From contig NZ_MUNR01000009.1 in NCBI RefSeq assembly GCF_002001045.1, forward strand, positions 186,001 through 250,000: a stretch of 64,000 bases of DNA, written 5' to 3'. The stretch comes from Rhodanobacter sp. C01 (GTDB taxonomy: Bacteria; Pseudomonadota; Gammaproteobacteria; Xanthomonadales; Rhodanobacteraceae). Each line of letters begins with the position of its first letter. Position 1 is the first letter of the stretch. The position numbers and the translations under genes are program-made. Under the pieces are notes generated by a model. That model was not told the DNA's origin, did not search any database, and saw only the letters and a list, made by a program, of their open reading frames with translations. Shown piece by piece: positions 3,231 through 23,664 of the stretch.

Positions 3231-3282
3231 AACGGGGTAAGGTTCACTTGCATCCTGCCTAAGAGTGAACCTGAACCCGTTT
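3231..3282. repeat. REP-like palindrome, GTCAGGTTCA type
   Basis: Imperfect inverted repeat: ACGGGGTAAGGTTCACT on the left and AGTGAACCTGAACCCGT on the right, with an 11-base centre. It belongs with 14472-14518 and the half-sites near 4400 and 17590. Confidence 0.65.
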
Positions 3283-3417
3283 CAGGCCAGACGACATCCA
3301 CTTCCGACTGTGGATTCAACCGGTCACTGCAACGGCTTGGTGAAATCGTTCGGCCGGAGTTTCGAGCCTAGCGCTCGCTGCTGCTGATGCGCTCCAGAAT
3401 GCGGCGAAGGTGTGCGG

Positions 3418-3487
3418 AAAAAATGGTGTCAGGGACGATTTAAGAGCTGCCGATAATTGTCCCTGACAGCTTTCCGACACCTTTTCC
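3418..3487. repeat. REP-like palindrome, GTCAGGGAC type
   Basis: TGTCAGGGACGATT (3427-3440) is mirrored by AATTGTCCCTGACA (3455-3468). The loop TAAGAGCTGCCGAT is nearly the same as in the copies at 6013 and 14790. An extra 11 bases separate the right arm from the usual CCTTTT tail, so this copy is slightly rearranged. Apart from these repeats and the hairpin at 3130, I see nothing in 3120-3501. Confidence 0.75.
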
Positions 3488-3501
3488 ACTCTGGTTTCCA
3501 T

Positions 3502-4182
3502 TCACACCACCTGCCGGCGACGCAAGATATCCGCGTGATAGCGCTCCTCGGGAGCATTGAGGTACGGCAACACGTGGCTGGCCGTCAGCCAGGAAACGCC
3601 AAAGGCCGTCAGCGCCGCCGCTTCGGCATAAAAGAACAGCCAAGGGAAATGCGTATCCAGCCAATCGTTGTGCAGGAGCATATCCAGGACGATATCTATC
3701 AGCAGGATCGCGATGGCGCCCATGATTGCCACCGCGCACAGCAGGTACACGCCCATGCGCCGCTTCGCCTCGCGCGCGGATTTCATGCGGGCTTTCCGAA
3801 AGAACGCTATGCAAAAATACGTCAGGATCACGAACAGTACCCCGCCGGCAACGTAGTGCAGCGTGGCGTGGCAGCGCGGCCAAACGATCTTGGTCGGATC
3901 GGATGGGAAAAGTGAAGTGCCGGCGGCAGCAACGGCAGCGACCTTAGCCATAACCAGATCCAGTGGCCTGTCACCGTTGTAGGCCGAAATCAGCGCGGCG
4001 ATCGCGATCAATGCGCCGACAAAAAAGTTCCGAGGCCAGTCCCCGGCCCAGTAGGACCCGCTAACTGAAGGCAGTACGTGGCCGGCGGCGAACCTAACCA
4101 GCCACGGCAAGAGAACCGCGATCGTGCCGACCCACAGCTTGATCGTAAGGTGGTCGATTTCATGGAAGCTTCGGTTGTTCAC
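3502..4182 (-). CDS. Integral membrane protein of unknown function
   Basis: 226 residues with five or six hydrophobic segments, roughly at 15-34, 51-68, 107-128, 143-166 and 180-205. A basic cytoplasmic loop (FRKARMKSAREAKRRMG) lies between the middle ones. No enzyme motif is visible and I do not recognise the family. It is a lone minus-strand gene flanked on both sides by REP-like repeats, with no likely operon partner. The reading frame and membrane topology are clear; the function is not. Confidence 0.75.
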   Translation of the reverse strand: MNNRSFHEIDHLTIKLWVGTIAVLLPWLVRFAAGHVLPSVSGSYWAGDWPRNFFVGALIAIAALISAYNGDRPLDLVMAKVAAVAAAGTSLFPSDPTKIVWPRCHATLHYVAGGVLFVILTYFCIAFFRKARMKSAREAKRRMGVYLLCAVAIMGAIAILLIDIVLDMLLHNDWLDTHFPWLFFYAEAAALTAFGVSWLTASHVLPYLNAPEERYHADILRRRQVV

Positions 4183-4349
4183 GGATGCGGGTCCTTCTCA
4201 AGGTATTGATTTCCACCCAGAACTGAGCCGGTTTTCATCGAAACGTGAGCCGCCGGTTGCGGGGCAGCTTAGCTCAGAGGTTGAGTGCACGGGTGTCCTT
4301 GACCTTCTTTCATGCGTCGCGGGCATCGTGCTGGAAGCGCTATTTAGGG

Positions 4350-4438
4350 ACGGGGTCGCGTCTAATTCCACGTCTTTATTTAAGTGAACCCGACCACTTT
4401 TTCCCATGCGCTCTCAAATTGTCCCTGACACCTTTTCC
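4350..4438. repeat. Mixed, degenerate REP-like sequences
   Basis: A mosaic. TTTAAGTGAACCCGACCACTTTTT (4377-4400) resembles one arm of the GTCAGGTTCA type, facing a weak left arm GGGACGGGGTCG at 4350. AAATTGTCCCTGACACCTTTTCC (4416-4438) is a lone right arm of the GTCAGGGAC type. A further half-site, GAAGTGCACTCTGACCC, follows at about 4450-4466. The rest of 4183-4483 contains no gene; a D-arm-like tRNA string near 4264 does not fold into a tRNA. Confidence 0.5.
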
Positions 4439-4483
4439 TCTGCCTAAAAGAAGTGCACTCTGACCCGGGTTCTCGGATTGGCG

Positions 4484-5323
4484 TCAAGGCTTCTTCGCGC
4501 CCGCCATCAGCTCGCGATGCTGCGCATCGGTCCGATCGTCCGCCGGATACAAGCACTCGATGCGCAACTCCTGCGTCGCGATAGTCTGTGGCGTGCCGAC
4601 CGTGGTCACCATCGAAAAATAGTTGAGCGTGCGGCCGCCCCTGACGAAGCTCAGCGGAATCATCGGCAGCGTCGGTTCCGGTATCGCCGCGTCGGCCGGC
4701 TTCAGGGCATCCTCCACTTCGGGGTAGGCCATCAGCGTGGTGAGCAGATCCCAGGTGCGTTCGTCGATCACCTGCCCCACCGACTCGCGATGCACGCGCT
4801 GGATCAGGCTCTTCGCGGTGCGATCCCAGTGCGCGATGAACGGGCGCAAGCCGGCGGGATCGAACATCAGGTGCAGCAGGTTGCGTGGCTTCGGTCGCGC
4901 CTCGAGATCGATGAACATGTTGAAGAAACGCGGTGCCGATGCGTTCGTCATGAACACGTTCCAGTAGCGGTCCATCACCACCGCGGGAAACGGCTCGTGC
5001 TGGCGCAGCACACGCTCCAGCGCGGCGTTCACGCTCTTCATCTCATCGGCGTTCCAGGCATCCTCGCCGTAGATCGGCGCGAAACCCGCGGCCAGCAGCA
5101 GGCGATTGCGATCGCGAAACGGCACTTCCAGTCCCTGCGCGATATTCATCAGGGTCTGCCGGCTCGGCGCGCTGCGGCCGCTCTCGATGAAACTGAGGTG
5201 GCGCTGGGACACGCCGGTATCCAGCGACAATTCGATCTGGCTCTTGCCGCGTGTGCCGCGCCAGTAACGAAGCAGTTCGCCCAGTTCGCCGCCGACGGCA
5301 GCTTCAGTTGGTCGGGTGGTCAT
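4484..5323 (-). CDS. XRE-family regulator with MmyB-like ligand-binding domain
   Basis: 279 residues. Residues 14-65 form a Cro/C1 helix-turn-helix (LLRYWRGTRGKSQIELSLD, then VSQRHLSFIESGRSAPSR). From about residue 95 the sequence matches the MmyB-type domain of actinobacterial and proteobacterial regulators: HEPFPAVVMDRYWNVFMTN, then FNMFIDLEARPKP, then the FVRGGRTLNYFSMVTTVGTP block near the end. Such domains are thought to bind fatty-acid-like ligands. The start is fixed by AGGTGA 7 bases upstream. It lies 119 bases downstream of the NTF2-like gene on the same strand, with a strong palindrome between them. Confidence 0.88.
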   Translation of the reverse strand: MTTRPTEAAVGGELGELLRYWRGTRGKSQIELSLDTGVSQRHLSFIESGRSAPSRQTLMNIAQGLEVPFRDRNRLLLAAGFAPIYGEDAWNADEMKSVNAALERVLRQHEPFPAVVMDRYWNVFMTNASAPRFFNMFIDLEARPKPRNLLHLMFDPAGLRPFIAHWDRTAKSLIQRVHRESVGQVIDERTWDLLTTLMAYPEVEDALKPADAAIPEPTLPMIPLSFVRGGRTLNYFSMVTTVGTPQTIATQELRIECLYPADDRTDAQHRELMAGAKKP

Positions 5324-5369
5324 GCGATATCACCTGGGTAGCCCGTTCAAAGGAATCAACGCTGGATGC

Positions 5370-5429
5370 ATCATGCGATGCCAGGATGCGTGCCGGGAAC
5401 CGAATACACGCATCCTGGCATCGCATGAT
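5370..5429. repeat. Perfect 23-bp inverted repeat between two genes
   Basis: ATCATGCGATGCCAGGATGCGTG (left arm 5370-5392) is repeated exactly inverted at 5407-5429, with a 14-base loop. No T run follows on either strand, so it is a poor intrinsic terminator. It sits between the NTF2-like stop (5443) and the XRE gene start (5323). It differs from the three REP types of this window. Confidence 0.8.
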
Positions 5430-5442
5430 CCTCCGCGTTGCA

Positions 5443-5832
5443 TCAGAACTCGATCGGACCGACCGAACCGAGCCAGCGACGGACCTTGGCGGGATCCTTC
5501 TCGTCCATGTAGAAAAAGTGCGCCATCGTAGGCCGTACGACCGGTAGCGCAGGATCGTCGAAGGCCATCCGCACGTTGCCATGGAACACCTTGAGCGAGC
5601 CGCCGTCCCAGTACTCCACGACATCGTGGTGTGCGGTGAAGCCGCGATCGATGAACTGGCGAAGGTTCTCGCGGATGGCGTCGCGGCCGTGCCAATCGGC
5701 CACACCGAGGTTGCAGACGGCATCGTGCGCGAAGCAGTCGAAGCCCTTGCCGAAGGTCTTGTCGTCGATCTCCTTCCAGAAATCGAGCAGCCACTGAGGC
5801 GGGTCTTTGCGGGTGAAAGTCATCGTGGTCAT
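5443..5832 (-). CDS. NTF2/SnoaL-like protein
   Basis: 129 residues of the NTF2-like cone fold: PPQWLLDFWKEIDDKTFGKGFDCFA, then HGRDAIRENLRQFIDRGFTAHHDVVEYWDGG, then a strand with GNVRMAFDD. Such proteins are small polyketide-cyclase-like enzymes or ligand binders; no catalytic residue assignment is possible here. I choose ATG 5832 because AGGAGA lies 7 bases upstream; the frame itself is open to 5862. Its 5' end and upstream region lie inside a 324-bp block that occurs again at 14522-14845. Confidence 0.8.
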   Translation of the reverse strand: MTTMTFTRKDPPQWLLDFWKEIDDKTFGKGFDCFAHDAVCNLGVADWHGRDAIRENLRQFIDRGFTAHHDVVEYWDGGSLKVFHGNVRMAFDDPALPVVRPTMAHFFYMDEKDPAKVRRWLGSVGPIEF

Positions 5833-6068
5833 CGCATCTCTCCTGAGCATCTGGATGGGCACCTGACAAGGTGCCTGGAATTACCCGAATGTCAGTCGAT
5901 GCGCATCGTTTCGTCGGGCGTGGCGCCACTATCGGCGACATGCCGCCCGCCAGCAATGACGTGCGAGGTAATAGAGACGCGTCAAAATCCTTGCTGGCCC
6001 GTCAAAACAAGAAATGGTGTCAGGGACGATTCAAGAGCTGCCGATAATTGTCCCTGACACCTTTTTCT
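5745..6068. repeat. REP-bounded duplicated block, copy 1
   Basis: These 324 bases align without a gap to 14522-14845, at a constant offset of 8777, with 6 mismatches by eye. The block holds the first 29 codons of the NTF2-like gene, its ribosome binding site and upstream region, and ends with the complete REP-like palindrome at 6013-6067. Here the NTF2 gene is intact, so this is probably the parental copy. Confidence 0.95.
6013..6067. repeat. REP-like palindrome, GTCAGGGAC type
   Basis: GGTGTCAGGGAC and GTCCCTGACACC are perfect arms, extended by an imperfect RATT/AATT step. The spacer is TCAAGAGCTGCCGAT. It forms the outer end of the duplicated block. Confidence 0.8.
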
Positions 6069-6156
6069 GCGTGGTCGTTGCATCTGAAGCATCCGCATGA
6101 GTGCGCCCCTCAGATGATTGCATACAGCAATCGATCACGATGACCAAACGCTACAA

Positions 6157-6190
6157 AGAAGAACGCCCGCGCAAGGCGGCCGTTCTTTTC
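6157..6190 (-). terminator. Hairpin downstream of the RHS-Sel1 pair
   Basis: AAGAACG (6159-6165) and CGTTCTT (6181-6187) pair, with an inner GCC/GGC step. TTTTC follows on the plus strand and a weaker T-rich run on the minus strand. It can act as a bidirectional terminator 62 bases beyond the Sel1-like stop. Confidence 0.5.
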
Positions 6191-6251
6191 GGATATCGGA
6201 TGATCAGTTTGAGGTGACGAGCGTCTTTTGAGCGCCGTCGCCATTCAAAAA

Positions 6252-6671
6252 TTAGAAACCGCCCGGCTTGTAGTTTTTTAGATGTTCAATGGCAGGTTGG
6301 TACCCTTGACTCGCTGCCCTACGAAGCCAATACATCGCCCTTCGTTGATCTTCCGGAGATTCTCGTCGAGACAATAAACCGTACGCGGTGTATTCGCAAT
6401 TCGGATCACCGTTTTCAGCGCCAATGATTGCCCACTGAAGTGCGAGTTCGAGGTTCAAAGTCACATTTGAATAGAACCTAGAAAGTTTGAGTGCAGCGTC
6501 ACCGGAGCCATCGAGGGCCTGCGCGCTTAGGCTGGATACTTGTTGAGTACTCAGCACGAACTCTTGTTCCGCAAAGGGTGGCGATGATGGAGCGGCCGCT
6601 TGATAGCTGTACGACAATGGTGCTGTCGAAAAACATATCAGCCCGATCAAGAAACTTAGTGTTGATTTCAT
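6252..6671 (-). CDS. Secreted Sel1/TPR-like protein, putative RHS partner
   Basis: 139 residues from ATG 6671, chosen because TGAGGTGAG lies 9 bases upstream (the frame is open to 6683). A signal peptide (MKSTLSFLIGLICF..., cleavage near residue 23) is followed by Sel1-like helical pairs: DAALKLSRFYSNV, LALQWAIIGAENGD and RAMYWLRRAASQGYQPAI. The start is 13 bases after the RHS stop, so the two genes are almost certainly co-transcribed. Small secreted genes directly after an RHS toxin are usually its immunity protein. A periplasmic immunity role is therefore inferred, not shown. It could also be a chaperone or an unrelated Sel1 protein. Confidence 0.7.
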   Translation of the reverse strand: MKSTLSFLIGLICFSTAPLSYSYQAAAPSSPPFAEQEFVLSTQQVSSLSAQALDGSGDAALKLSRFYSNVTLNLELALQWAIIGAENGDPNCEYTAYGLLSRRESPEDQRRAMYWLRRAASQGYQPAIEHLKNYKPGGF

Positions 6672-6684
6672 ACAGCTACTCACC

Positions 6685-9600
6685 TCAGTTCTTTTGGGGG
6701 CTGAAAGTATTCATGGTGCCTGGAGCACTCAGATCTATGGAGATATTCGTGGGATTTATTCCAGTCTGATCCCACTGAACCGGCCCATTAGCGCCGAGCG
6801 CCCCTGCCACTGTGAACGTTCCGTTTGATTGAAACCAACCAAACGTATTCGGCGCTTGAACAGGGGCTCCTAGATCATTCGCCAAGAACTGAGCATACGG
6901 AGTCGGCGCATAGGGCTTGCCGGGATTGCGACCGGTATTGCAAGAAAGCAGTCGCACGGGTTCGCCCAGCTTGTACGATTTGTCGCGCTTAATCAGTTGA
7001 GCAAGCTCACTTGGATAAAGCGGGTTTCCGTTCGCATCAACCATATCGAGAGGGTTTCCGTGCGCTCCGACCGTATAAACATCAGCCGGGCTTTGGTAGT
7101 TATTCGCACCCGTCCAATCGTCCGTATTTTTCGGGAACATATTTAAGTTCACCTGCAAGCCAAGCGGGTCGAAGTAGCTCAGCGGATCATTGCCGACATA
7201 GGCATACATACTGACTCCACCATTGAGCCCGATCGGATCACTCTGCAGATACCGCCCCGTCGCCGGCTCGTAGTACCGCGCCCCGTTGTACATCAACCCG
7301 GTTTCCACATCGTAGTACTGCCCCGGAAACCGCGTGTAGAAGTTACCGGCACCACGGGTCGGCTGTTCACCAAACGCATTGTTGAGCCACGGCCACTGAT
7401 AGGTGCCCACGGCCTGCGTATTGGCGATCGCGCGGATGGTGCCCAGCTGGTCCGCGTAGTCGTAGTTGATACCAGGCGCCGCCTTTCCTGCGTCGGTCGC
7501 CGAGGCCACCGGGATGCCATCCAGGTACACGTATTCGCGATAGTCGGTCGCGAAGTATTCGCCGTAGAGGTTGCCTGTGCCTGTCGGGTCATAGATCGTC
7601 GCCGCCTGCCCGATGGACGGAGAAGTGATCGTGCGCCACACGCGCACGCCCTGACCGTTGTACTGATACGAACCGATCGTGCTGCCGCCGCTGGTGACCG
7701 TGGTCAGCAGGTTGCGGTCGTCGTAGCCCAGCCCCACCAGCGCGCCATTGGGGTCGGTCATGGCGGTGGTATTGCCATTGGCATCGGGTAACCGCGAGGC
7801 ACTGCCCACGGCCGTGAGTCGATGGCTGCCGGTTTGATAGCCGTAGGTGAGGGTGCCCTGCCCGGCCACGGTCTTGGTCAGCCGATCCCCGGTGGGGCCG
7901 TAAGTGAAGCTTTGTTCGGCCACGCCGTTGGGATCATCCAGCTCGCTCAACCGGTTCAGCGGGTCGTAGCGGTAGCTCTCGCTGAGCGGGTTGGCCCCCG
8001 GCGCCGTGCCCTCCGCGCCGATCCGGCCCATCGTGTCGCGCTGGAAATGCAGGGTCAGCGCGTTGCTGGTGATATCGGTCAGCGCGTAGTTCTGGTCGTA
8101 GGTGCGTTGCACGGCCTGGCTGCCTTGTGCCCACGAGTAACCGGTCACCGGACCGAACGGGGCATAGGACACCGCCGTGATCAGCGGCGTCAGGGTGCTG
8201 TTGGTGTAGCTGCCATACGGCCCCGGCTGCTGCAGGTAGCCGATCGTGGCCATCCGGCCATCGCTGTCGAACCCGTACTTCAGCTCGAAGCCCGACGGGT
8301 ATTGCAGGTACTGCAGGCGCCGTCCGGCGGTGTAGGCATACCCATGCAGGTAGCTGACATTGGTCGTGGTGGTGCCCACCACCTGCTTGATGGTCTGGTT
8401 CACCTCGCGGATATCGCCCTGGTTGGTGTAGCACCAGGCGGTGGTACCCGAAGCATCCGTCATGCCGGTGAGGTGGCCGATGTTGAAGTTGGTCGGGCAG
8501 CCGGTGATCGGGGTCGCCTGGTCGTAGACATAGGTGACATTGAGGCCGGGATGGGCCGGGTAGATCTTGCCGGTCAGCCGGTTCAGCCTGTCATAGGTGT
8601 ACTGGGTGACGACGCCGCGTGCATCGGTGTGCTGGGTGCGATTGCCCGCTGCGTCGTACAGGTCGCCGGACGATCCCCCCGACGTGCCGCTATCGGGACT
8701 TTGCAACGCCGTGAGATTGCCGAGGCCGTCGTAGGTGTAGTTGGTGGCCAGTCCACTGGGGTCCAGCACGGCGGTCACGCGGTCCAGCGCATCGTGGGTC
8801 ACGCTGGTGGCGGTGTTCTGGGTCGCCGGGTCGGTGCCCTGGTAGTTCTCGATCGTGCTGTTCAACCGATTCAGCGCGTCGTAGCCCTGCTGGCGCTGGA
8901 TGCCCAGCGCATCCTTGCTCAGCACGAGATTGCCGTTGGCGTCGTAGTTGCCGCTGCCGCTGGCGTCGAACACGGTGTGGTTGAGCCCATCGAGCACCGT
9001 GGTGAGCTGGCCCAGGGTATTGAAGGTACGGCTGAGGCTTTTATGCAACGTGCCGGTGCTGTCATAGACCTGCTCGCCGGTTTTATCGCCGGCGGCATCC
9101 AGGGTGTACTGGACGTAGTTGCCCTGGGCATCGGTGATGCGGGTCAGGCGATGGGCCGTGTCGTAGCCGTAGCTGGTGGTGACGTTGTCGGGATCAGTGA
9201 TCGAGGCGACCGCACCGTACGGTGTGTAACCGATCGTGGTGACGGCGCCGCCCACGCTGCGTGAATGGAGCCAGCCACGCGGCGTGTAGGTCAGGTCGGT
9301 ATTGACGCCATTGGCGTCGGTGACGCGGGTAGGACGTCCGGCGCCATCGTAGGAAACGACCGTGGTGATGTGACCCAAGGCATCGGTCACCTGATACAGA
9401 TCACCCGGCTGATGGCAGGCACTTCCCGGTGTGCCGCAACCCGAAGCGCTGCTGCCCAGGTAGTAGCTGTAGGTCGTGGTCTGGGTCAGGTCGGTGCGTG
9501 GCCCGGTGACGGAGAGCAACAATCCGACGAGCGGGCACTGAGTCGTATCGACAGCGGTGCAGTAGGTGTAGGTCCAGCGACGCACACCTGTCGGCGGTGT

Positions 9601-11190
9601 GCCACTGGCGGCGCAGGTATAGGACACCGCCGGATCGATCTCGCAGCGGGCCAGCGGCTGGCCGGCGGTGTTGTAGACCCAGGCGGTCGAGGCGACGGCG
9701 GTACCGCTCGCATTGAGCACGGCGCGGGTCAGGGGAACGCGAAGCGTCGTGTTCCAGGTGAGGTTGGTGGTGCGCTGGCTGGGCGTGCCGGAGGCATCGA
9801 TCTGCTGATCAAGCAGGCCGTTGGCATCGTAAGTCGTTTTTGTAATGTTGCCGTTCCAATCTGTCGCAGAAGCCGGATAGCCGTTGGTGTCGAACGTGGC
9901 CGCGGTGTTAGGTTGGCCACAGGCTGGACCGCAGGGAGCACTGACCGAGTTCGCGTGAACGGAACCATTAGGCGTCACGAAGCCAAGGGTCGTTTGGGCA
10001 CCCAGCGGGTATGTTACCGACGAAGTCCCGTTACTGTTGTAAACCACCTGCGTGTCATCGACACCCCCAGCCAGTTGCGACGAGCTCGCCCGTCCCTCAC
10101 TGTCGTAGCCGATGCTGGTAAAACGGTTGCCCACCTCATCGATGTCGCCGGTCAGAGCATTGGGAAGATTCGTCCCACCCGTCAGCGTGCTTTCGTTGTA
10201 GACGTACTGACGAAAGGTGCTATCCGGATAAGTTACTTTGGTCAAGTTGCCATTTGAATCGTAGGCATAGCTCAGCACGCCGCCATCGGGCAATGTCACC
10301 TTCGAAATGTCGCTGCTACTGTTATAAACAAAAGACAGCTGCCTACCTTTCGGATCGGCCACCGTCAATAAAAGCCCGGTGACCGGAGCAACTGTCGCGG
10401 GGGTTGTCGTCGTGCTGTAAGTTAACGTTGTAGTTTGTTGATTGGTATCCTGGATGGTAATCAACTGCCCACTGGCGTTGAAATTTTCGTAGTGACGCGT
10501 GGCCGCCTCAAAATACGTCCATCCAGTGATGGTGCCGGAACTCACTGTCGAGGTGAGCGTATCAGCGACATCGGGGTCAGCAACCCAACTCGTACCACTT
10601 ATTGTGAAGGTGACTTGGCGGCCATCAGGGCGAAAGACGACTGCGGTGGGTGACGCATAAGCCAAACTGCGATCAAAATTATGTCGCCAGTGCGCCCCCA
10701 CGTTGGCGGTGACAACCTCCGTCTGACTGTTGTAGTAGCGGCTGAAGCGGAGTCCGCCAAGTCCAGCGTCTACATCCACGTCCTCTCTATATTCATTGCC
10801 CGTGCCCATGTTGATGGGATCCGCGGCGCCCGAAAGAATGGGATTACCTTGGCAGTTGCAAGGTGAGCCAGCGTTCTTATGGGCATTTCCTGGAGACGTT
10901 GGGTCCGTGTAGTAATACTCCGCCCCACCCACTCCCGTATCCAGCCAGTAAAAGCCAGCCCAAACCGTTGGATACGATTGATAAACGCAAGCTTTGTAGA
11001 TCGGATACCCGTTAGTAGGGTCCGGTGCGTAATACAACGACCTGACCCACGCCAGCTCAACCTGACAGGCCGCATAGGCGGCAGATTGTTCTTGGTATTC
11101 GGCCATCGAGTCAGCTTTCGCTGTCGACGAAGTAGCATGCAGCACTATGGCAACAATGAACAGAATGAGATATTTGGCCGAGCGCGTCAT
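6685..11190 (-). CDS. Secreted RHS-repeat protein with variable C-terminal toxin-like tip
   Basis: 1501 residues. A Sec signal peptide (1-26) is followed by a Cys-containing N-terminal region. A DUF6531-like entry (ADPINMGTGNEYREDVDVDAG) then leads into some 1000 residues of YD/RHS repeats (GYDTAHRLTRITDAQGN and similar). The RHS core ends YDVETGLMYNGARYYEP... DPLGLQ at about residue 1346. The last 155 residues are not RHS. They contain a TVGAHGNP motif (His 1377) and LLSCNTG (Cys 1417), followed by YAQFLANDLGAPVQAP. A His-Gly and Ser-Cys pair spaced like this recalls clan CD cysteine peptidases (CHAT/C80), but this is inference. AAGGGGA precedes the start. The Sel1-like gene follows after 13 bases. 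Confidence 0.9.
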   Translation of the reverse strand: MTRSAKYLILFIVAIVLHATSSTAKADSMAEYQEQSAAYAACQVELAWVRSLYYAPDPTNGYPIYKACVYQSYPTVWAGFYWLDTGVGGAEYYYTDPTSPGNAHKNAGSPCNCQGNPILSGAADPINMGTGNEYREDVDVDAGLGGLRFSRYYNSQTEVVTANVGAHWRHNFDRSLAYASPTAVVFRPDGRQVTFTISGTSWVADPDVADTLTSTVSSGTITGWTYFEAATRHYENFNASGQLITIQDTNQQTTTLTYSTTTTPATVAPVTGLLLTVADPKGRQLSFVYNSSSDISKVTLPDGGVLSYAYDSNGNLTKVTYPDSTFRQYVYNESTLTGGTNLPNALTGDIDEVGNRFTSIGYDSEGRASSSQLAGGVDDTQVVYNSNGTSSVTYPLGAQTTLGFVTPNGSVHANSVSAPCGPACGQPNTAATFDTNGYPASATDWNGNITKTTYDANGLLDQQIDASGTPSQRTTNLTWNTTLRVPLTRAVLNASGTAVASTAWVYNTAGQPLARCEIDPAVSYTCAASGTPPTGVRRWTYTYCTAVDTTQCPLVGLLLSVTGPRTDLTQTTTYSYYLGSSASGCGTPGSACHQPGDLYQVTDALGHITTVVSYDGAGRPTRVTDANGVNTDLTYTPRGWLHSRSVGGAVTTIGYTPYGAVASITDPDNVTTSYGYDTAHRLTRITDAQGNYVQYTLDAAGDKTGEQVYDSTGTLHKSLSRTFNTLGQLTTVLDGLNHTVFDASGSGNYDANGNLVLSKDALGIQRQQGYDALNRLNSTIENYQGTDPATQNTATSVTHDALDRVTAVLDPSGLATNYTYDGLGNLTALQSPDSGTSGGSSGDLYDAAGNRTQHTDARGVVTQYTYDRLNRLTGKIYPAHPGLNVTYVYDQATPITGCPTNFNIGHLTGMTDASGTTAWCYTNQGDIREVNQTIKQVVGTTTTNVSYLHGYAYTAGRRLQYLQYPSGFELKYGFDSDGRMATIGYLQQPGPYGSYTNSTLTPLITAVSYAPFGPVTGYSWAQGSQAVQRTYDQNYALTDITSNALTLHFQRDTMGRIGAEGTAPGANPLSESYRYDPLNRLSELDDPNGVAEQSFTYGPTGDRLTKTVAGQGTLTYGYQTGSHRLTAVGSASRLPDANGNTTAMTDPNGALVGLGYDDRNLLTTVTSGGSTIGSYQYNGQGVRVWRTITSPSIGQAATIYDPTGTGNLYGEYFATDYREYVYLDGIPVASATDAGKAAPGINYDYADQLGTIRAIANTQAVGTYQWPWLNNAFGEQPTRGAGNFYTRFPGQYYDVETGLMYNGARYYEPATGRYLQSDPIGLNGGVSMYAYVGNDPLSYFDPLGLQVNLNMFPKNTDDWTGANNYQSPADVYTVGAHGNPLDMVDANGNPLYPSELAQLIKRDKSYKLGEPVRLLSCNTGRNPGKPYAPTPYAQFLANDLGAPVQAPNTFGWFQSNGTFTVAGALGANGPVQWDQTGINPTNISIDLSAPGTMNTFSPQKN

Positions 11191-11993
11191 TTGGTCCCCT
11201 TGGCTTGCCCCTTACCGCTGCTGATATCGAACCGCATAGCTGACGCACGACATCAGAAACAGTCCCCCCGAACAAAAATCCATTGAGTTTCCCGGATGAC
11301 TCGCTTCCAAGCGATGGCTCGGTTCACGGGAAACTCATGAGCCATCACACCAACGCGTTTTATAATAGGCCAATGAATCGTTGAGGTGGCCTTAGGCGCT
11401 GTCAGAACCTACAGGTTCGCCCGAAAGCGCATCTCTCTATCGTTGCCAAGAAGTCGCCCAAGCTGACCGAGTATCTGCCGCATGACCGATGCTCGGACAA
11501 AGGGCGACTTCGTGGATTGTTGAATGGATACATCTTGGCGCCCGGCCCCCTCAGGCGCCATTTTTTTGGGCTGTGCAAAACCCTGCGCGCACGGGACTTA
11601 ACTGCGCACACCGATGCGGCGAATGCTCCATCAAGGAAGAGCTCAGAGACATTTCCAACGCTGAAAAAAAGTTTCTGACACCTTTCCCCCATTGATAATA
11701 CTTGTGGCGTAAGCTTCTTGCGTGACAGGATGGCGCAGGGGAATCTTGGTCATACCACCAAGGGGTCGCAATTCATTGCGATCCACGCTCCGCGTGTGAC
11801 TTGAGGGAAAGTTAGGCGAGGCCATGGATGACAGACGACAGAGCCCAGGCTTGCAGCTCACGGATGCGTGTATCCGTGGATGCGCAGTGCGCGGCTATCG
11901 GCCATGTCCTTTCGTTGTCCCAGGTTTCGCTCACGCGCATTCACCAGCGTGGCGTTGCCGCGCGCTCGCTTCAACACCAACACCGGGAACAAC
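11191..11993. other. Long intergenic region between divergent RHS and GloVer genes
   Basis: About 800 bases with no convincing gene. It contains nested palindromes at 11284-11348 and a degenerate right arm of the GTCAGGGAC type (TTTCTGACACCTTTCCCC, near 11670-11690). Frames on both strands around 11402-11861 have no recognisable motif, and the GloVer frame can be read back to 11868 without a plausible start. Promoters for both flanking genes should lie here, but I cannot point to them. Confidence 0.5.
11284..11348. repeat. Nested palindromes upstream of the RHS gene
   Basis: TGAGTTTCCCG (11284-11294) pairs with CGGGAAACTCA (11327-11337). Inside it lies the tight hairpin TCGCTT-CC-AAGCGA (11301-11314). 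GATGGCTC (11313-11320) can instead pair with GAGCCATC (11341-11348). The alternatives exclude each other, so a switching RNA structure is possible. It lies about 95 bases before the RHS start, in its likely leader. Confidence 0.55.
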
Positions 11994-14183
11994 ATGGAAC
12001 AGATGAACAGGGACAACATGGAACAGATGAATAAGAGCAAGGTGGTCCGGCCGCGCACCCTGCGCATGACGCGCATCGCGGCGACGTTGCTGGGGGCACT
12101 TGGGTATGCTGTGGTCTCATCGACGGCCGGCGCAACGACGACGACATCGCCGACCTTGCTCGCGGCCCTGCCGGGCGGCACGGGCCTGAGTACGCCTGTC
12201 GGGCACCTGCTGCAAGGCAGCGACGGCAACCTGTACGGCGCCGCCATGCATGACAACAGCACCAATTCCGGTGGTGTCTTCCGCGTCTCGATGACGGGCG
12301 CTTATACCGATTTCTACGATATCAACCCCGCGGCGCAGCAGCAGCCTTTCGGCGGCTTGTTCCAGGCCGGCAACGGCGAGCTCTATGGCACGCTGGTCAC
12401 CACGGACAGCGGCCCCGCACCTGGCGGCGCCGTCTACAGCCTCACCACGGGCGGCTTGTACGACAACGTGCACACCTTCGCCAGCGCGACCTCGTCTGGC
12501 CTGAACTGGTACAACAGCGATGGCGCTTTGCCCGAAACGAGCCTGGTGCAAGGCCCGGATGGCACGCTCTATGGCGTGACCTACAGTGGCGGTGAGTCGG
12601 GCGCAGGCACGCTCTACTCGATCAGTTCCGCCAACAACTTTTCGCTGCTCTATACCTTCGATCCAACCGGCACCATGACCGGCACCCATCCCAATGGATC
12701 ACTCGTGCTCGGCAGCGATGGCAACCTGTATGGCACCACGATGAGTGGTGGTGACAATGGTACGGGCACGATCTACCGCGTCACGCCGGGCGGCAGCATC
12801 GCGCAGATCTTCTCGTTTCCCTCGGGCGGCACTGGTAGCTGCAGCGCCGCCGAATTTGCCGGCGCCGATGGTACGTTGACGGCTGGCGCCAACGGCAAGC
12901 TCTATGGCGTGCTCTGCTCGGCGGGTACCAACGCTGCCGGGCTGATCTACAGCTTCGATCCCGCCACGACTACATTCACTGCCTTGCACGATTTTGGTGC
13001 TGGTTCGCAAGGCAACGTCACTGGCTGGGGTCCCAATGGTCCGCTGGTGCTGGGCGCGGACGGCAACCTTTATGGTTCGACCGGCGCGGGTGGCACCTAT
13101 GACGACGGCGCGATCTTCGAATTGGCGCCGGATGGTTCGTCGTACAAGGTGCTTTACAGCTTCAATGGCACCGATCCACTGGGCTACTATCCCCGATCGC
13201 TGGTGTTGGGCGCGGACAACAACCTCTATGGCACGACCACGCTCACAGGCAGCGGCAACAATGGCGCAGTCTTCCGCTTTCCGTACATGGCGCCCAACGA
13301 TCTGGTGATGACCAATGCAAGCGCCAGCTCGCTCGACGTTCGCCTGATCAACCAGGCAGGTGCGCAGCAAGTGTTGCAGACGGTCGCGAAAGGTTACTAC
13401 CCAGTCGCCGTGGCGGATTTCAACGGTGACGGCTTCCAGGACATCCTGTGGACCAGCGCCAACAACGATCTCTACATGTGGCTGGGCGGCAGCAGCGGGG
13501 GCACCGGCTTCACATCAGTTTACATGGGCAAGTATCCGGCGGGCTGGAGCGTCACCGGTGCAGGCGACATCGACGGGGACGGCAAGACCGATCTCTACTG
13601 GATCAACACCAGCACACATCAATTTGGCTACTGGCTGATGGATGGCACGACCACCAAGAGCACGTACAGCACCTCATACACGCCGGGTTATTACCCGATC
13701 GCGGAAGGCGATTTCAACGGCGACGGCAAACTGGACGTGCTCTGGAGCAGCGCCAATAACGACCTTTACATGTGGACCAGCAACGGCACCAGCGGCAGCA
13801 GCCGTTTCACCGGGGTCTATGCCGGCTCGTATCCGGTCGGCTGGAAGCTCGTTGGCATCGGCGACCTCGACGGTGACGGCAAGAGCGACCTGGTATGGAT
13901 GAAGACCGATGGATCCCAGTGGGGCTATTGGCTGATGAACGGTGTCCAGCGCAAGTCCATCGTAACGGTGTCGAACGCGGGCGCGGAATCCACCACCATT
14001 GTCGCCGTCGATGACTACAACCACGACGGCCTTGCCGATCTGGTGTGGAGCAACGGCAGCAACCTGATCCTGTCGACCAACGCGGGCACGTGCGCATCGC
14101 AGTGCACCTTCACGCCGACCACGCTCGCGGCACCTGCCGCAGGCATGACGGTCTTCAAGAAGAACGTGCCCAACACGCCCTAA
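11994..14183 (+). CDS. Secreted beta-propeller protein with GloVer and VCBS/FG-GAP repeats
   Basis: About 729 residues from ATG 11994; the duplicated string AACATGGAACAGATGAA offers a second start at 12018, and neither has a strong ribosome site. A signal peptide follows a basic N-terminus (LRMTRIAATLLGALGYAVVS, cleaved near STAGA). The first two thirds carry GloVer repeats (TIGR03803 type), each with a G-DGNLYGTT-GG--GTGTIYR pattern. The last third has VCBS/FG-GAP-like repeats with Ca-binding loops such as ADFNGDGFQD, GDIDGDGKTD and GDLDGDGKSD. The protein is probably exported and binds calcium. Adhesion or surface glycan binding is possible; no catalytic motif is seen. A strong hairpin follows the stop. 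Confidence 0.85.
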   Translation: MEQMNRDNMEQMNKSKVVRPRTLRMTRIAATLLGALGYAVVSSTAGATTTTSPTLLAALPGGTGLSTPVGHLLQGSDGNLYGAAMHDNSTNSGGVFRVSMTGAYTDFYDINPAAQQQPFGGLFQAGNGELYGTLVTTDSGPAPGGAVYSLTTGGLYDNVHTFASATSSGLNWYNSDGALPETSLVQGPDGTLYGVTYSGGESGAGTLYSISSANNFSLLYTFDPTGTMTGTHPNGSLVLGSDGNLYGTTMSGGDNGTGTIYRVTPGGSIAQIFSFPSGGTGSCSAAEFAGADGTLTAGANGKLYGVLCSAGTNAAGLIYSFDPATTTFTALHDFGAGSQGNVTGWGPNGPLVLGADGNLYGSTGAGGTYDDGAIFELAPDGSSYKVLYSFNGTDPLGYYPRSLVLGADNNLYGTTTLTGSGNNGAVFRFPYMAPNDLVMTNASASSLDVRLINQAGAQQVLQTVAKGYYPVAVADFNGDGFQDILWTSANNDLYMWLGGSSGGTGFTSVYMGKYPAGWSVTGAGDIDGDGKTDLYWINTSTHQFGYWLMDGTTTKSTYSTSYTPGYYPIAEGDFNGDGKLDVLWSSANNDLYMWTSNGTSGSSRFTGVYAGSYPVGWKLVGIGDLDGDGKSDLVWMKTDGSQWGYWLMNGVQRKSIVTVSNAGAESTTIVAVDDYNHDGLADLVWSNGSNLILSTNAGTCASQCTFTPTTLAAPAAGMTVFKKNVPNTP

Positions 14184-14190
14184 GCGAAAC

Positions 14191-14229
14191 GGCAACGATG
14201 AAGCGGGACGTACCCGCTTCATCGTTGCC
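14191..14229 (+). terminator. Strong hairpin terminator after the GloVer gene
   Basis: GGCAACGATGAAGCGGG (14191-14207) and its exact complement (14213-14229) form a 17-bp stem with a 5-base loop, 8 bases after the stop codon. The T tract is weak (CATCTTTC). Confidence 0.75.
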
Positions 14230-14263
14230 GCATCTTTCAATCTGCATCGATGCTGCCGCAAGA

Positions 14264-14326
14264 ATGGTGTCAGGGACAATTTTAAGGCCGCCTAGCCCTT
14301 GGAAAATTGTCCCTGACACCTTTTTT
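14264..14326. repeat. REP-like palindrome, GTCAGGGAC type, best-preserved copy
   Basis: GGTGTCAGGGACAATTTT (14266-14283) and its exact complement (14303-14320) give an 18-bp stem with the loop AAGGCCGCCTAGCCCTTGG. The usual CCTTTTTT tail follows. The loop differs from the copies at 6013 and 14790. Confidence 0.85.
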
Positions 14327-14348
14327 TACCAAAGCCGATGTCGCAAAG

Positions 14349-14459
14349 ATGTCTGGCAAATACGGCCTTTATTTACTTGTCGCGATACTCGGGCTTGTCT
14401 TTGTCGGGCAAGTCAGTCGAAAGAAACCAGCCATCAAGCCTCCGCCTTTGCCAAAATAA
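14349..14459 (+). CDS. Possible small single-pass membrane peptide
   Basis: A 36-codon frame: MSGKYG, a hydrophobic helix LYLLVAILGLVFVG, then a basic Pro-rich tail (SRKKPAIKPPPLPK). The composition is what a real small membrane peptide would show, but there is no clear ribosome binding site (only GCAAAG). It occupies almost exactly the gap between two REP-like palindromes (ending 14326, starting 14472). It may be a genuine small gene, or the end of one left behind by rearrangement. Confidence 0.3.
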   Translation: MSGKYGLYLLVAILGLVFVGQVSRKKPAIKPPPLPK

Positions 14460-14471
14460 GCAACAGAAAAG

Positions 14472-14518
14472 AAGTCAGGTTCATTTACCCATTCGTAATA
14501 AATGAACCTGACCCCTTT
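14472..14518. repeat. REP-like palindrome, GTCAGGTTCA type, at the edge of the duplicated block
   Basis: GTCAGGTTCATTTA (14474-14487) and TAAATGAACCTGAC (14499-14512) form a perfect 14-bp stem with an 11-base loop. The CCCCTTTGTT tail ends directly at the first base of the duplicated block (14522). Confidence 0.85.
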
Positions 14519-14521
14519 GTT

Positions 14522-14609
14522 CCTTGCCGAAGGTCTTGTCGTCGATCTCCTTCCAGAAATCGAGCAGCCACTGAGGCGGGTCTTTGCGGGTGAAAGTCAT
14601 CGTGGTCAT
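14522..14609 (-). pseudogene. Truncated 5' fragment of the NTF2-like gene
   Basis: The first 29 codons (from MTTMTFTRKD) of the gene at 5443-5832, with the same AGGAGA ribosome binding site, cut off after the DDKTFGKG region, where the copy meets the REP-like sequence. The frame runs on briefly into repeat sequence, so at most a meaningless short peptide is made. Confidence 0.85.
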
Positions 14610-14789
14610 CGCATCTCTCCTGAGCATCTGGATGGGCACCTGACAAGGTGCCTGGAGTTACCCGAATGTCAGTCGATGCGCATCGTTTCGTCGGGCGTGG
14701 CGCCACTATCGGCGACATGCCGCCCGCCAGCAATGACGTGCGAGGTAATAGCGAGGCGTCAAAATCCTTGCTGGCCCGTCAAAACAAAA

Positions 14790-14844
14790 AATGGTATCAG
14801 GGACGATTCAAGAGCTGCCGATAATTGTCCGTGACACCTTTTTC
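14790..14844. repeat. REP-like palindrome, GTCAGGGAC type, in copy 2
   Basis: Same as 6013-6067 with two changes in the arms (GGTATCAGGGAC and GTCCGTGACACC), so the stem is slightly decayed relative to copy 1. Confidence 0.8.
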
Positions 14845-14870
14845 TCTTATTTTCACCAGCAAGTGACGCC

Positions 14871-15080
14871 TTACAACGACCACGGCGTCAAGTCGGCTTC
14901 ATGGATCTCTGTTGATGACCCATCTTCAAATTCAACGGTGTAGACGGGTCCCGGGGGAAATTGGTCGAAATAGGGCCCAGGCCTGCTCTCGAAAATGCCA
15001 ACGATCCAGGCTTTACGCCGCGGTACTTGTGGGTTCGATGCTTCCGATGCCCACACAATATCGTCATAGGTGAATTTCAT
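14871..15080 (-). CDS. Putative immunity protein of the mini-RHS toxin
   Basis: 69 residues from ATG 15080, which follows the RHS stop by 1 base and has GGAGGGGG 6 bases upstream; the frame is open further but would overlap the toxin. The protein looks like a small beta-barrel: MKFTYDDIVWASE, then RRKAWIVGIFESRPGPYF, then YTVEFEDGSSTEIHEADL. The pattern of a turn-rich strand pair ending in an acidic E-DL motif resembles small immunity proteins (Imm31-like), though this is from memory. It has no signal peptide, so it would act in the cytoplasm. Position and tight coupling are the main arguments for an immunity role. Confidence 0.65.
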   Translation of the reverse strand: MKFTYDDIVWASEASNPQVPRRKAWIVGIFESRPGPYFDQFPPGPVYTVEFEDGSSTEIHEADLTPWSL

Positions 15081-15081
15081 A

Positions 15082-15996
15082 TCAGCCCCCTCCATTGATC
15101 GGGAGGTGGGGGTTTCCATCTTCAGTTGTCACGTCGGGCCGGTGGGCGTGCGGTTGTTGAGCATTCGGGTCTGCCTGTCCACTGTGGCCTCCACGATCCA
15201 AACGATCTCCGGTTGGCTTGCCGTTAGAGCCGATGACTTGTTGGTAGTCCCCGTTCGGCGAGGTGTTTACTTTTTGCCCTGTGTCGACGGGTATCGCGTT
15301 GCCGTGTTTATCCACGACCACGACCGGCGAATCAACTTTTCCCGTATAAGGATTTGTGTTGCCATCACTCGCTGGCACGGGTTTGGCCGCAGGGGCTGGT
15401 GCATCCGCAGGTTTTGCGGTCGGAGCAGGTGCATCGTCGTTGTGATGAGCTGTGGGAGCGGTGTTTTGGACAGCTCTAACAGTGAGTGTGGCAACCAACG
15501 CTGCTCCAGCCGCGACAACCGCGGTGCCGCAGGGGGTTGCCGCGCAAGCGGCAATGGCTTCACCGATACAGAGGTCTTCAAGACACTTTCCGTTGGGGTC
15601 GATGTGATTGATTGGGTTGTTATTGACGTAGGTATAGCGGTTAAAGTTGAACGCATTTCCTGCCGTAGGGACTATGGGGTCAACACTGATAAATCGGCCG
15701 ATCGCGGGATCGTAATAGCGCGCTTGCATGTAGCTAAGCCCAGTATCGGGGTCATTCACATGGCCCGCATAGCCAGGCCCGTTAGGCGCAGTTCCAAGTG
15801 CTATTCCGCCATAGGGCGCATAGTCGAATGTCGCTGTGATGTTCCCCTGCGCATCGGCCTCGGCGAGTGGAGTGCCCTGAGAGTCCGTGTAAACGTAGGT
15901 CACGGTACCTGCGTGAAGCTGCGTGTTGAGAAAAACACTCAGCAGAAAAATCACTAAGCATCGGCTCCATGCCCTCAATCCGCTGCCGTCTTTCAT
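15082..15996 (-). CDS. Short RHS-core protein with C-terminal toxin-like domain
   Basis: 304 residues from ATG 15996 (CAGGGG 8 bases upstream; a second ATG at 16002 has no room for a ribosome site). A signal peptide of about 28 residues leads straight into a single RHS core: VTYVYTDSQGTPLAEADAQG, then YMQARYYDPAIGRFISVDPI, then NRYTYVNNNPINHIDPNGK. An Ala/Pro-rich hydrophobic linker follows. The last 75 residues contain GNAIPVDTGQKVN, then IGSNGKPTGDRLDRGGH and DPNAQQPHAHRPDV. This closely resembles what I remember of polymorphic toxin type 24 (predicted RNase). It lacks the usual thousand-residue RHS shell, so it is either a cut-down orphan tip or a silent cassette. Confidence 0.82.
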   Translation of the reverse strand: MKDGSGLRAWSRCLVIFLLSVFLNTQLHAGTVTYVYTDSQGTPLAEADAQGNITATFDYAPYGGIALGTAPNGPGYAGHVNDPDTGLSYMQARYYDPAIGRFISVDPIVPTAGNAFNFNRYTYVNNNPINHIDPNGKCLEDLCIGEAIAACAATPCGTAVVAAGAALVATLTVRAVQNTAPTAHHNDDAPAPTAKPADAPAPAAKPVPASDGNTNPYTGKVDSPVVVVDKHGNAIPVDTGQKVNTSPNGDYQQVIGSNGKPTGDRLDRGGHSGQADPNAQQPHAHRPDVTTEDGNPHLPINGGG

Positions 15997-16152
15997 GTAC
16001 ATCCCCTGTTTATCCCCTAGGAGAAGACTACAAGAAGTTCTATTTGGTGAGAACGCCGAGTGCTAGTGACGTCGGCCCGCGAGGGTGTCAATGCCCTGAT
16101 CCCATTTTCTGATGACCATTTTCTTCATGACTTCGTTTCCTTGAGTACAGCC

Positions 16153-16353
16153 TCAAGCCGCCGCCAGCACTTTGCGCACCGTCTTCGGCGCCGCCACAGC
16201 AACCTTCAGTAACGCCTTGGCAGCCCCGCTCGGCTCGCGCCTACCCTTCTCCCAGTCCTGCAGTGTGCGAACGGAAACACCGATCATCACAGCGAAATCA
16301 AGCTGCGACAAACCATGCTTGAGTCGGGCTTCCATGGCTTGCGTCACGCCCAC
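16153..16353 (-). pseudogene. XRE-family HTH (antitoxin-like), N-terminally truncated
   Basis: 66 codons from a GTG. The helix-turn-helix is intact (KHGLSQLDFAVMIGVSVRTLQDWEKGRREPSG), as in HigA/NadS-type antitoxins, followed by AAKALLKVAVAAP. Relatives carry about 30 further N-terminal residues. Here the frame is broken immediately upstream by a stop inside the REP-like palindrome at 16361-16412, so the repeat has probably replaced the 5' end. No toxin partner is adjacent. A shortened protein might still be made from the GTG. Confidence 0.6.
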
Positions 16354-16360
16354 ATTCGCA

Positions 16361-16412
16361 ATAAAGGGGACGGAGTAAATTATCTCGGCTTAATTACCTC
16401 CGCCCCCTTATT
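16361..16412. repeat. REP-like palindrome, GGACGGAGGTA type
   Basis: ATAAAGGGGACGGAG-TAAATTA on the left and TAATTACCTCCGCCCCCTTAT on the right, with a short centre. It abuts, and seems to truncate, the XRE gene. Confidence 0.75.
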
Positions 16413-16496
16413 TGGTCTGTTTTCGGTTATTTCTGCCTGGACCCGACCGACCGGGCGCGCCGCCTACTCGGCGCGTCCAGTCGAGCCGAAATGGCC

Positions 16497-17261
16497 TCAG
16501 ATGGCAGGCTGGACGTATGCCAGCGCAGCTGCCCTTTCACCACCGCCGAGCGGTCCGACGACAGTGAGCCGAGCCGAAGGGCGCGATATGCCGCGCAGGG
16601 ATGCGCATGCCGGTACGGCGAGATAGGAGGCTGCCTCCTCCCTCACGTCTGCATGCGAACGACGACGCCCATCGAGGCGCTGCACACTGTCGACGTCATG
16701 GATGATGTCGCGCAGTCTCTCTGCATCGCGAATGATGGCATCGCCCATGATCGACAGCGTGACGTCAGCGAAGTCCGCCTGATCGGTAGCGACCACTACA
16801 TCGCCATGGGCGCGGAGGATGTCGCCCAGCCGGGCCAGTTCGTCGATCTGGTCCAGGGTGACGCCCGACACATAGCATTTGCCCGCCTCGTTCGTCGCCG
16901 ACCAGCCCAATTCCGGTTCAGTGTCGTCCGTGTCCGCCGCTACCTCAGTGAAGGTGGACACTTTCGGCTCAACTTCAACCTCCGCCTTGGCCTCGGGCGC
17001 AGCCACCTTGTCGCCACGCTCGGCGGGATACGAGAGTTCGTCCAGCACCTGAGCGATCTGCTCCTCCAGCAGTTCCAGGCAGATCGCGACTTCGCCTGGG
17101 CGAATCTCCGCGAACCACTCCCGATCCACGTCCGACCTGCGCGGTCGCGCCAAATTGGTCAGGAACCCCACGTATTCGCGTAGCTGCTTCAGCCGCAGCT
17201 GGCTGTCCTCCGGCAGAAAATAGCCCGTCGTTTCCAGATCATCCGAATCGTACGTCGACAT
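16497..17261 (-). CDS. XAC0095-family protein
   Basis: 254 residues. The N-terminus (TTGYFLPEDSQLRLKQLREYVGFLTNLARPR) is the signature of the XAC0095 family, small proteins of unknown function typical of Xanthomonadales. It is followed by an acidic helix with LELLEEQIAQVLDELSYPA. Family members I recall are about 100-120 residues, so the remaining 130 residues are unusual. They hold TLDQIDELARLGDILRAHGD and FADVTLSIMGDAI. The last 45 look like read-through into non-coding sequence (Ala/Gly/Pro-rich). AGGAGG lies 6 bases before the ATG. The leader is highly structured and contains a C4-RNA-like fold. Confidence 0.8.
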   Translation of the reverse strand: MSTYDSDDLETTGYFLPEDSQLRLKQLREYVGFLTNLARPRRSDVDREWFAEIRPGEVAICLELLEEQIAQVLDELSYPAERGDKVAAPEAKAEVEVEPKVSTFTEVAADTDDTEPELGWSATNEAGKCYVSGVTLDQIDELARLGDILRAHGDVVVATDQADFADVTLSIMGDAIIRDAERLRDIIHDVDSVQRLDGRRRSHADVREEAASYLAVPACASLRGISRPSARLTVVGPLGGGERAAALAYVQPAI

Positions 17262-17317
17262 GGTCGCCTCCTAGTTCCATAGAAGTGCCCGTCCACGACG
17301 TGACGACGGACGGGAAG

Positions 17318-17390
17318 TCGGGAGGCTAGAAACCGCGTACAGACGGCGGGCGTATTCCCCTTGCGGGTGTTGTATTAGCCGCCCTCCCGA
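17318..17390 (-). ncRNA. C4-antisense-RNA-like structured leader element
   Basis: On the minus strand, TCGGGAGG (17390-17383) pairs with CCTCCCGA (17325-17318) as a closing stem. Inside, GGCGG (17383-17379) pairs with CCGCC (17349-17345), and a CCC-GCAA-GGG GNRA hairpin (17367-17358) caps it. The 3' half (17345-17318) is complementary to the upstream sequence at 17487-17461, the hallmark of phage P1/P4 C4 RNAs, which pair with their own transcript. A second hairpin, CCCGTCC/GGACGGG (17314-17288), sits just before the ribosome site of the XAC0095 gene. The fold is clear; the C4 name is from memory. Confidence 0.5.
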
Positions 17391-17426
17391 CGCAGGGTTC
17401 GCGTCGGCTTGCACCTGCGAACAGGT

Positions 17427-17457
17427 ACAAAAAACCCACCGGTTTGTCGGAGGTGGG
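17427..17457 (-). terminator. Intrinsic terminator inside the XAC0095 leader
   Basis: CCCACC (17457-17452), an 11-base loop, GGTGGG (17440-17435) and six T's (17434-17429), read on the minus strand. It lies about 170 bases before the XAC0095 start and upstream of the C4-like fold, so it could attenuate the gene or end a short leader RNA. Confidence 0.7.
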
Positions 17458-17581
17458 TACCGCTGTACGACGGAGTTTCTAGGCTCCTTGAAATCGAGTC
17501 TGCTACGGCAGTGAAGGGGTGTCAAGACAGGTCCATGGCTATCGGTTGACGTCCATGACACTTCTGCGTTGTAGCGCGGGT

Positions 17582-17604
17582 GAGTGAACCTGACTCCATT
17601 TTTT
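17582..17604. repeat. REP-like half-site, GTCAGGTTCA type
   Basis: GAGTGAACCTGACTCCATTTT with no opposite arm. The rest of 17458-17817 shows no gene; a 67-codon plus-strand frame starting in this half-site has no recognisable motif. Confidence 0.45.

Positions 17605-21993: not shown

Positions 21994-23664
<1,671 letters not shown>

Follow-up and report, generated by a model that had tools for sequence, protein, structure and literature searches.

The window, as we call the whole 64,000-nucleotide stretch of Rhodanobacter sp. C01 DNA analysed here (C10:186001–250000), contains one 324-bp block twice, which raises the question of where the second copy came from. A preliminary description, made from the DNA sequence, had proposed recent movement of a REP-flanked unit or recombination at REPs. 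Repeat finding, a search of the window's own genome, and base-by-base comparison all reproduced the duplication that it had reported: 5745–6068 and 14522–14845 are 324 bases each and align ungapped with 6 mismatches, which the base-by-base comparison places at 5880, 5975, 5978, 6011, 6019, and 6054 of copy 1. The copies have the same orientation, lie 8.8 kb apart, and are both on contig C10 (334,351 bases). In the own-genome search (3.98 Mb, 14 contigs, E ≤ 0.001), a check that the preliminary description had suggested, the full-length block was found at 2 places, and 4 further matches, at 3 places, consisted of the palindrome part alone. The block and the genes at its first copy are:

4484–5323, minus strand: MmyB-type HTH regulator (MLTR_LBD), the partner gene of the module
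5443–5862, minus strand: SnoaL/NTF2-like gene, 139 aa, with SnoaL_2 and SnoaL_4 Pfam matches, both below cut-off
5745–6068, plus strand: first copy of the block (copy 1), covering the intact SnoaL-like gene on its upstream side, with an a-type palindrome as its right end
14522–14845, plus strand: second copy of the block (copy 2), with 6 mismatches and a truncated start of the gene

Copy 1 belongs to an intact two-gene module, of which it forms the upstream side. Copy 2 holds only the start of the SnoaL-like gene, comprising the 29 codons originally described if counted from the ATG, or 39 if counted from an upstream GTG; its reading frame enters the b-type palindrome to its left and then stops, and copy 2 is probably non-functional. 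The promoter that had been assigned to the block is unproven, and a simple sigma-70 scan of 5850–6100 found none. Between the copies lie an RHS gene and a GloVer gene, as had been stated, together with a Sel1-repeat gene (6252–6683), and so these two are not the only contents. The large RHS gene spans 6685–11190; a separate short RHS core piece is present at 15082–16002, with a small gene (14871–15119) beside it.

The palindromes near the block fall into several types, and are listed without strand except for the row at 4381–4467:

3418–3473: third a-type palindrome, with a loop nearly the same as that of the block
4381–4467, minus strand: row of three TIR halves (b2, a, and d types), ending no more than 17 bp from the start of the module
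6012–6065: a-type TIR palindrome that closes copy 1 on the right, a near-perfect hairpin
14260–14326: further a-type TIR palindrome, with a different loop
14327–14467: filler of 141 bp between the a-type and b-type palindromes
14468–14518: b-type TIR palindrome; copy 2 starts three bases after its arm
14790–14843: a-type TIR palindrome that closes copy 2 on the right, its hairpin weakened by two changes

In computed folding, the a-type (GGTGTCAGGGAC..) and b-type (GGGGTCAGGTTC..) sequences form DNA hairpins, the a-type hairpin having an energy of −9.8 kcal/mol in copy 2 compared to −17.8 kcal/mol in copy 1. The 141-bp filler matched no second place among the sequences compared. Both types flank Y1 (HUH) transposase genes as inverted repeats in relatives from the genus, which is one hallmark of TIRYTs. 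At L116, a-type repeats at 1752(+) and 2492(−) surround a Y1_Tnp gene (E 2.1e-13) whose open frame extends beyond the right repeat; at L114, b-type repeats at 8180(+) and 9128(−) surround a frame at 8247–9017 (Y1_Tnp, E 1.9e-13). The window genome exhibits the other hallmark, dispersed TIR repeats without the gene. In a scan tolerating up to three mismatches, C10 yielded 35 TIR halves, compared to 2 in its reversed control, and the 787-kb contig C6 yielded 7, compared to 0; these merge to 20 and 7 elements, respectively. All 16 TIR halves found in the window lie within 3234–17597.

The window genome has one PF01797 (Y1_Tnp) match at E ≤ 0.001, located between GTAG REPINs at C6:24055–24128 and C6:24641–24717, and this search found no transposase matched to the a-type or b-type TIRs. 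Because the sole match sits between GTAG-type REPINs, the a-type and b-type repeats are orphans in the window genome as far as PF01797 can tell. The suggested search for a RAYT elsewhere in the genome thus yielded one Y1 gene, but one flanked by REPINs of another kind, and a local RAYT was rejected as the mover for that reason. Nor does the foot of the a-type and b-type hairpins carry a GTAG or GTGG tetranucleotide; these palindromes start and end otherwise. The term 'REP-like' holds insofar as it implies a transposon origin, these repeats being TIRs of Y1 genes in relatives, and does not hold if taken to mean GTAG-type REPs.

These repeats can be compared with known systems. Excerpts of PMC3733652 describe long TIRs around RAYT-like genes, termed TIRtrons and TIRYTs, and dispersed TIR families that are most numerous in Stenotrophomonas maltophilia K279a. 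Like the TIRs in those excerpts, the present repeats, in this case self-complementary, flank Y1 genes in inverted orientation in relatives; unlike them, the window repeats have no matched transposase in the PF01797 search and also mark the edges of gene fragments. Compared to the GTAG REPs and REPINs with RAYTs in excerpts of PMC3733652 and PMC3116915, they are likewise inverted repeats tied to Y1 transposases, but the window palindromes lack the GTAG tag, and a separate GTAG REPIN family surrounds the sole Y1 match.

The junctions bear directly on whether a flanked unit moved. The b-type palindrome left of copy 2 has arms at 14468–14487 and 14499–14518 followed by GTT, so that the element ends ..CCCCTTTGTT and the block starts immediately, at 14522. 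The preliminary description was therefore correct that copy 2 starts at a palindrome tail and that a palindrome of another type, the a-type, terminates both copies. Among other b-type elements of the genus, some likewise terminate in TTTGTT or something close to it, followed by varied flanks, and others do not. The left edge of copy 1 has no palindrome and lies in ordinary coding sequence, and at the joint the donor and the insertion site have only CC in common. On the right, copy 1, copy 2, and the corresponding sequence of Rhodanobacter sp. C05 all end just past the a-type palindrome, each followed by a different flank. Neither copy has the same TIR family at both ends: copy 2 has b-type on the left and a-type on the right, and copy 1 has none on the left. 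Because copy 1 lacks a palindrome at its left edge, recent movement of a REP-flanked unit is not supported, and that proposal is also at odds with the GTAG-REPIN context of the sole PF01797 match and with the grouping of copy 2, at two sites, with the C05 allele rather than with copy 1. Recombination at REPs fares better: the ends of copy 2 coincide with palindromes, and this proposal is close to the reading that we prefer. Among the matches scored in the other genus genomes (six candidates per genome), none had the flanks of copy 2, and neither an empty site nor a duplication at the same sites, the two outcomes to be looked for in relatives, was seen.

The module itself has an uneven distribution. 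In a collection of named contigs, the SnoaL-like protein is most similar to those of Rhodanobacter sp. C05 (97%), Dyella sp. S184 (93%), and Pinirhizobacter soli (82%), with more distant relatives in Bradyrhizobium, Acidobacteria, and others, for 19 loci overall. A relative of the regulator adjoins the SnoaL-like gene in 11 of these 19 loci (tblastn E ≤ 1e-10), a count that includes one locus with the regulator split in two hits and one locus with the regulator in divergent orientation. Of the 45 genus genomes, 3 encode the SnoaL-like protein, the window genome counted. DNA homology covers window positions 4487–6068 for C05 and 4476–5989 for S184; beyond the module, the window flanks are unlike those of C05 and S184, except for palindromes, in the stretches compared, and the flanks differ in all three genomes. 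C05 has the a-type palindrome where copy 1 has it, and S184 is without it. A protease and a MAQKK-type regulator stand beside the module in both C05 (L025 4548–8568) and S184 (L026 7598–12238), on opposite sides, as if permuted. A perfect 23-bp inverted repeat lies between the two module genes in the window (5370–5429).

Module identity is 96.6% for window–C05, 92.5% for window–S184, and 91.3% for C05–S184; the corresponding values for hutU are 91.1%, 91.4%, and 93.1%. Because the window and C05 modules are 96.6% identical compared to 91.1% for hutU, the one marker gene used, the two genomes probably share a module that was exchanged at a later date.

Comparison of the block copies with C05 addresses the descent of copy 2. 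Copy 1 and copy 2 have 6 differences, copy 1 and C05 have 5 plus an indel, and copy 2 and C05 have 3 plus an indel; at four of the six sites where the copies differ, copy 2 agrees with C05. At position 5975, copy 2 and C05 carry C, and copy 1 and Dyella sp. S184 carry A. At position 6054, copy 2 and C05 carry G, and this G is derived because C occupies the position in 63 of 68 distinct a-type halves (G in 3, T in 2); copy 2 and C05 account for two of the three G's. The remaining differences are private to one sequence or lack a clear outgroup. Thus, copy 2 and C05 are joined by two shared derived sites, and no site clearly joins copy 1 with copy 2; as evidence of descent, this is moderate. Gene conversion of copy 1 by a different palindrome, or parallel change, could mimic the pattern at 6054. 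The derived bases shared by copy 2 and C05 speak against a recent local copy, and on these grounds recent local movement was rejected as the leading reading, its older form being retained as a rival.

Our preferred explanation, which we consider to have about an even chance of being correct, is that copy 2, rather than being a recent copy of copy 1, represents what is left of a second, now truncated allele of the horizontally moving two-gene module, joined at TIR hairpins. It lies in the zone at 3.2–17.6 kb of the window, near hutU, which is rich in palindromes of the kinds that flank Y1 (TIRYT) genes in relatives and is probably prone to rearrangement. Recombination at the hairpins may have made the joints, as may template switching during the repair of a break. 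A module copy, either incoming or older, might have paired at the a-type palindrome and been joined illegitimately at the b-type palindrome; alternatively, a b-type element might have inserted into a module copy, with subsequent deletion of the remainder. Homology-facilitated illegitimate recombination, as presented in excerpts of PMC3240628, is alike in that one homologous and one illegitimate end would yield the geometry of copy 2, and for the Rhodanobacter copy such a process is only inferred. Among the points that temper the relic reading, the grouping of copy 2 with C05 depends on only two informative sites, and no empty site or intermediate was found among the matches scored in the genus genomes.

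The most serious competitor is a local segmental duplication soon after the window lineage gained the module, by template switching or palindrome recombination, with copy 1 diverging later. This scenario is possible but clearly less probable than an even chance. It would account for two copies on the same contig, 8.8 kb apart in the same orientation, and for copy 1, copy 2, and C05 being about equally distant, the copy 1–C05 and copy 1–copy 2 distances being nearly equal; moreover, REP clusters are described in excerpts of PMC11708052 as recombination hot spots. It does not account for the two derived states common to copy 2 and C05, and no state of clear polarity is common to both copies. Those two derived bases also stand against one-ended mobilisation, in which a TIRYT (Y1, HUH) transposase acting in trans would carry an a-type hairpin end and about 270 neighbouring bases to the end of a b-type element. 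We regard this mechanism as unlikely, even though the left and right ends of copy 2 are each at a TIR end, a 161-bp duplication beside a Y1 gene in genome G027 has a like geometry, and Y1_Tnp matches occur in 36 of the 45 genus genomes: the sole Y1 match of the window genome lies between GTAG REPINs, the ends of copy 2 belong to different TIR families, and CC is all that the joint shares between donor and insertion site.

Two further alternatives have still lower probabilities. Campbell-type integration, through the block, of a circle carrying the RHS–GloVer segment would leave direct copies on both sides, and direct copies do flank an 8.45-kb segment with its own cargo; we judge it very unlikely, as no joined form was present among the matches scored (six candidates per genome), copy 2 has a TIR end next to it on the left, and the copies do not resemble sisters. 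An assembly artefact, which had been named as a finding that would overturn the duplication, is scarcely credible. Nothing beyond the presence of repeats favours it, both copies are inside one 334-kb contig, and at four of the six differences copy 2 matches an independent genome of another species.

Other gene fragments near TIRs, one in C05 and a less convincing one on C10, hint at a pattern. A 520-bp hutU fragment of C05 (C1:232442–232961; L132 10443–10962) lies about 3 kb from the intact gene, to which it is 92.5% identical. It starts 9–10 bp after a complete c-type palindrome, which is the only TIR element that the TIR scan found on this 233-kb contig; a degenerate b-type half, missed by the TIR scan and detected with a looser 14-base pattern, follows the fragment. 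The fragment is closest to the hutU of its own genome (93% vs 91% or less elsewhere), and import of separate alleles is therefore not general. On C10, a 281-bp piece (C10:328407–328687; L145 18407–18687) consists largely of sequence preceding the start of an XAC0095-family gene, and 26 bp separate its end from an a-type palindrome. Its sharp left edge at C10:328407 was set by the query and not by biology, and the TIR scan found no TIR there; relatives in its own genome are 87% identical, and those in G007, G021, G016, and G068 are 90–92% identical. The two copies of the G027 duplication (G027:C1:3092097–3092257 and 3093449–3093609; L169 12097–12257 and 13449–13609) are 99.4% identical; a d-type TIR half lies about 8 bp before the start of the second, with the Y1 gene nearby.

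Enrichment tests gave mixed statistics, and we treat fragments at TIRs as a lead. On the two contigs, 5 of 54 TIR flanks open with a segment repeated elsewhere, compared to 89/4000 random positions, 373/4000 non-ORF positions, 374/4000 non-ORF positions of C10 alone, and 0/26 GTAG REPIN flanks, and thus TIR flanks are not enriched over the non-ORF control. For duplication edges in the window genome, 19 of 39 rows were kept after removal of near-tandem pairs and of repeats of <140 bp with GTAG or GTCAT signatures, a step that also lost a tRNA pair. An edge lies within 15, 30, or 60 bp of a TIR in 3, 4, and 4 of the 19, respectively. Under a uniform null, these counts had P values of 0.0025, 0 of 2000 permutations, and 0.0020; under a non-ORF null, they were weakly significant by edges (0.0205, 0.0095, and 0.0195) and not significant by duplications (0.175, 0.127, and 0.28). 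The four TIR-edge rows represent two families: three of them belong to the XAC0095 gene family, and the fourth is the block, which has a TIR inside it and is the very finding being tested. In C05, 1 of 3 duplications has such an edge (at 30 bp, P 0.004 for the uniform and 0.003 for the non-ORF null), and in G027 the value is 2 of 3, both near Y1 genes (at 30 bp, P 0.0105 and 0.271, respectively).

Duplications and rearrangements associated with REPs were reportedly described by Shyamala in 1990. The joints here are alike in falling at palindromic repeats and unlike in that they bound a short truncated fragment, with two repeat families at its ends and no tandem duplication. Our literature search found nothing on gene-fragment capture at REPs and, judged by title and the start of the abstract, nothing related on REPs with Rhodanobacter. 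The structural trace is real but modest, and it hints at a way in which repeats of this kind may stitch genomes together. Discussion of REP-like repeats usually centres on mobility or regulation; if the hairpins of these repeats are also joints for small modules or gene fragments from other lineages, this would explain mosaic zones near RHS loci and make the hutU neighbourhood in Rhodanobacter a concrete, testable place to catch the process. A broader possibility is that TIR hairpins of Y1 (HUH) transposons are gene-fragment capture points in Rhodanobacter, comparable in bacteria to Helitron or Pack-type capture, acting mostly at one conserved hot spot beside hutU that shuffles whole modules, RHS tips, and fragments between species. 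We think this generalization is unlikely.

Clustering of TIRs near hutU was examined across the genus. In the window, hutU (21994–23664) is close to the TIR-rich interval 3234–17597. The search used a query containing no hutU sequence and scored six candidates per genome. Of the 22 other genomes with both hutU and TIR-like hits, 14 had such hits ≤30 kb from hutU, and in 8 the hits were on contigs other than that of hutU. In total, 17 of 37 hits were within this distance, compared to 0.55 expected under uniform placement in 4 Mb. When hutU loci were read with about 1.5 kb on each side, the fragment locus L213 being left out, 7 of 19 contained a TIR half.
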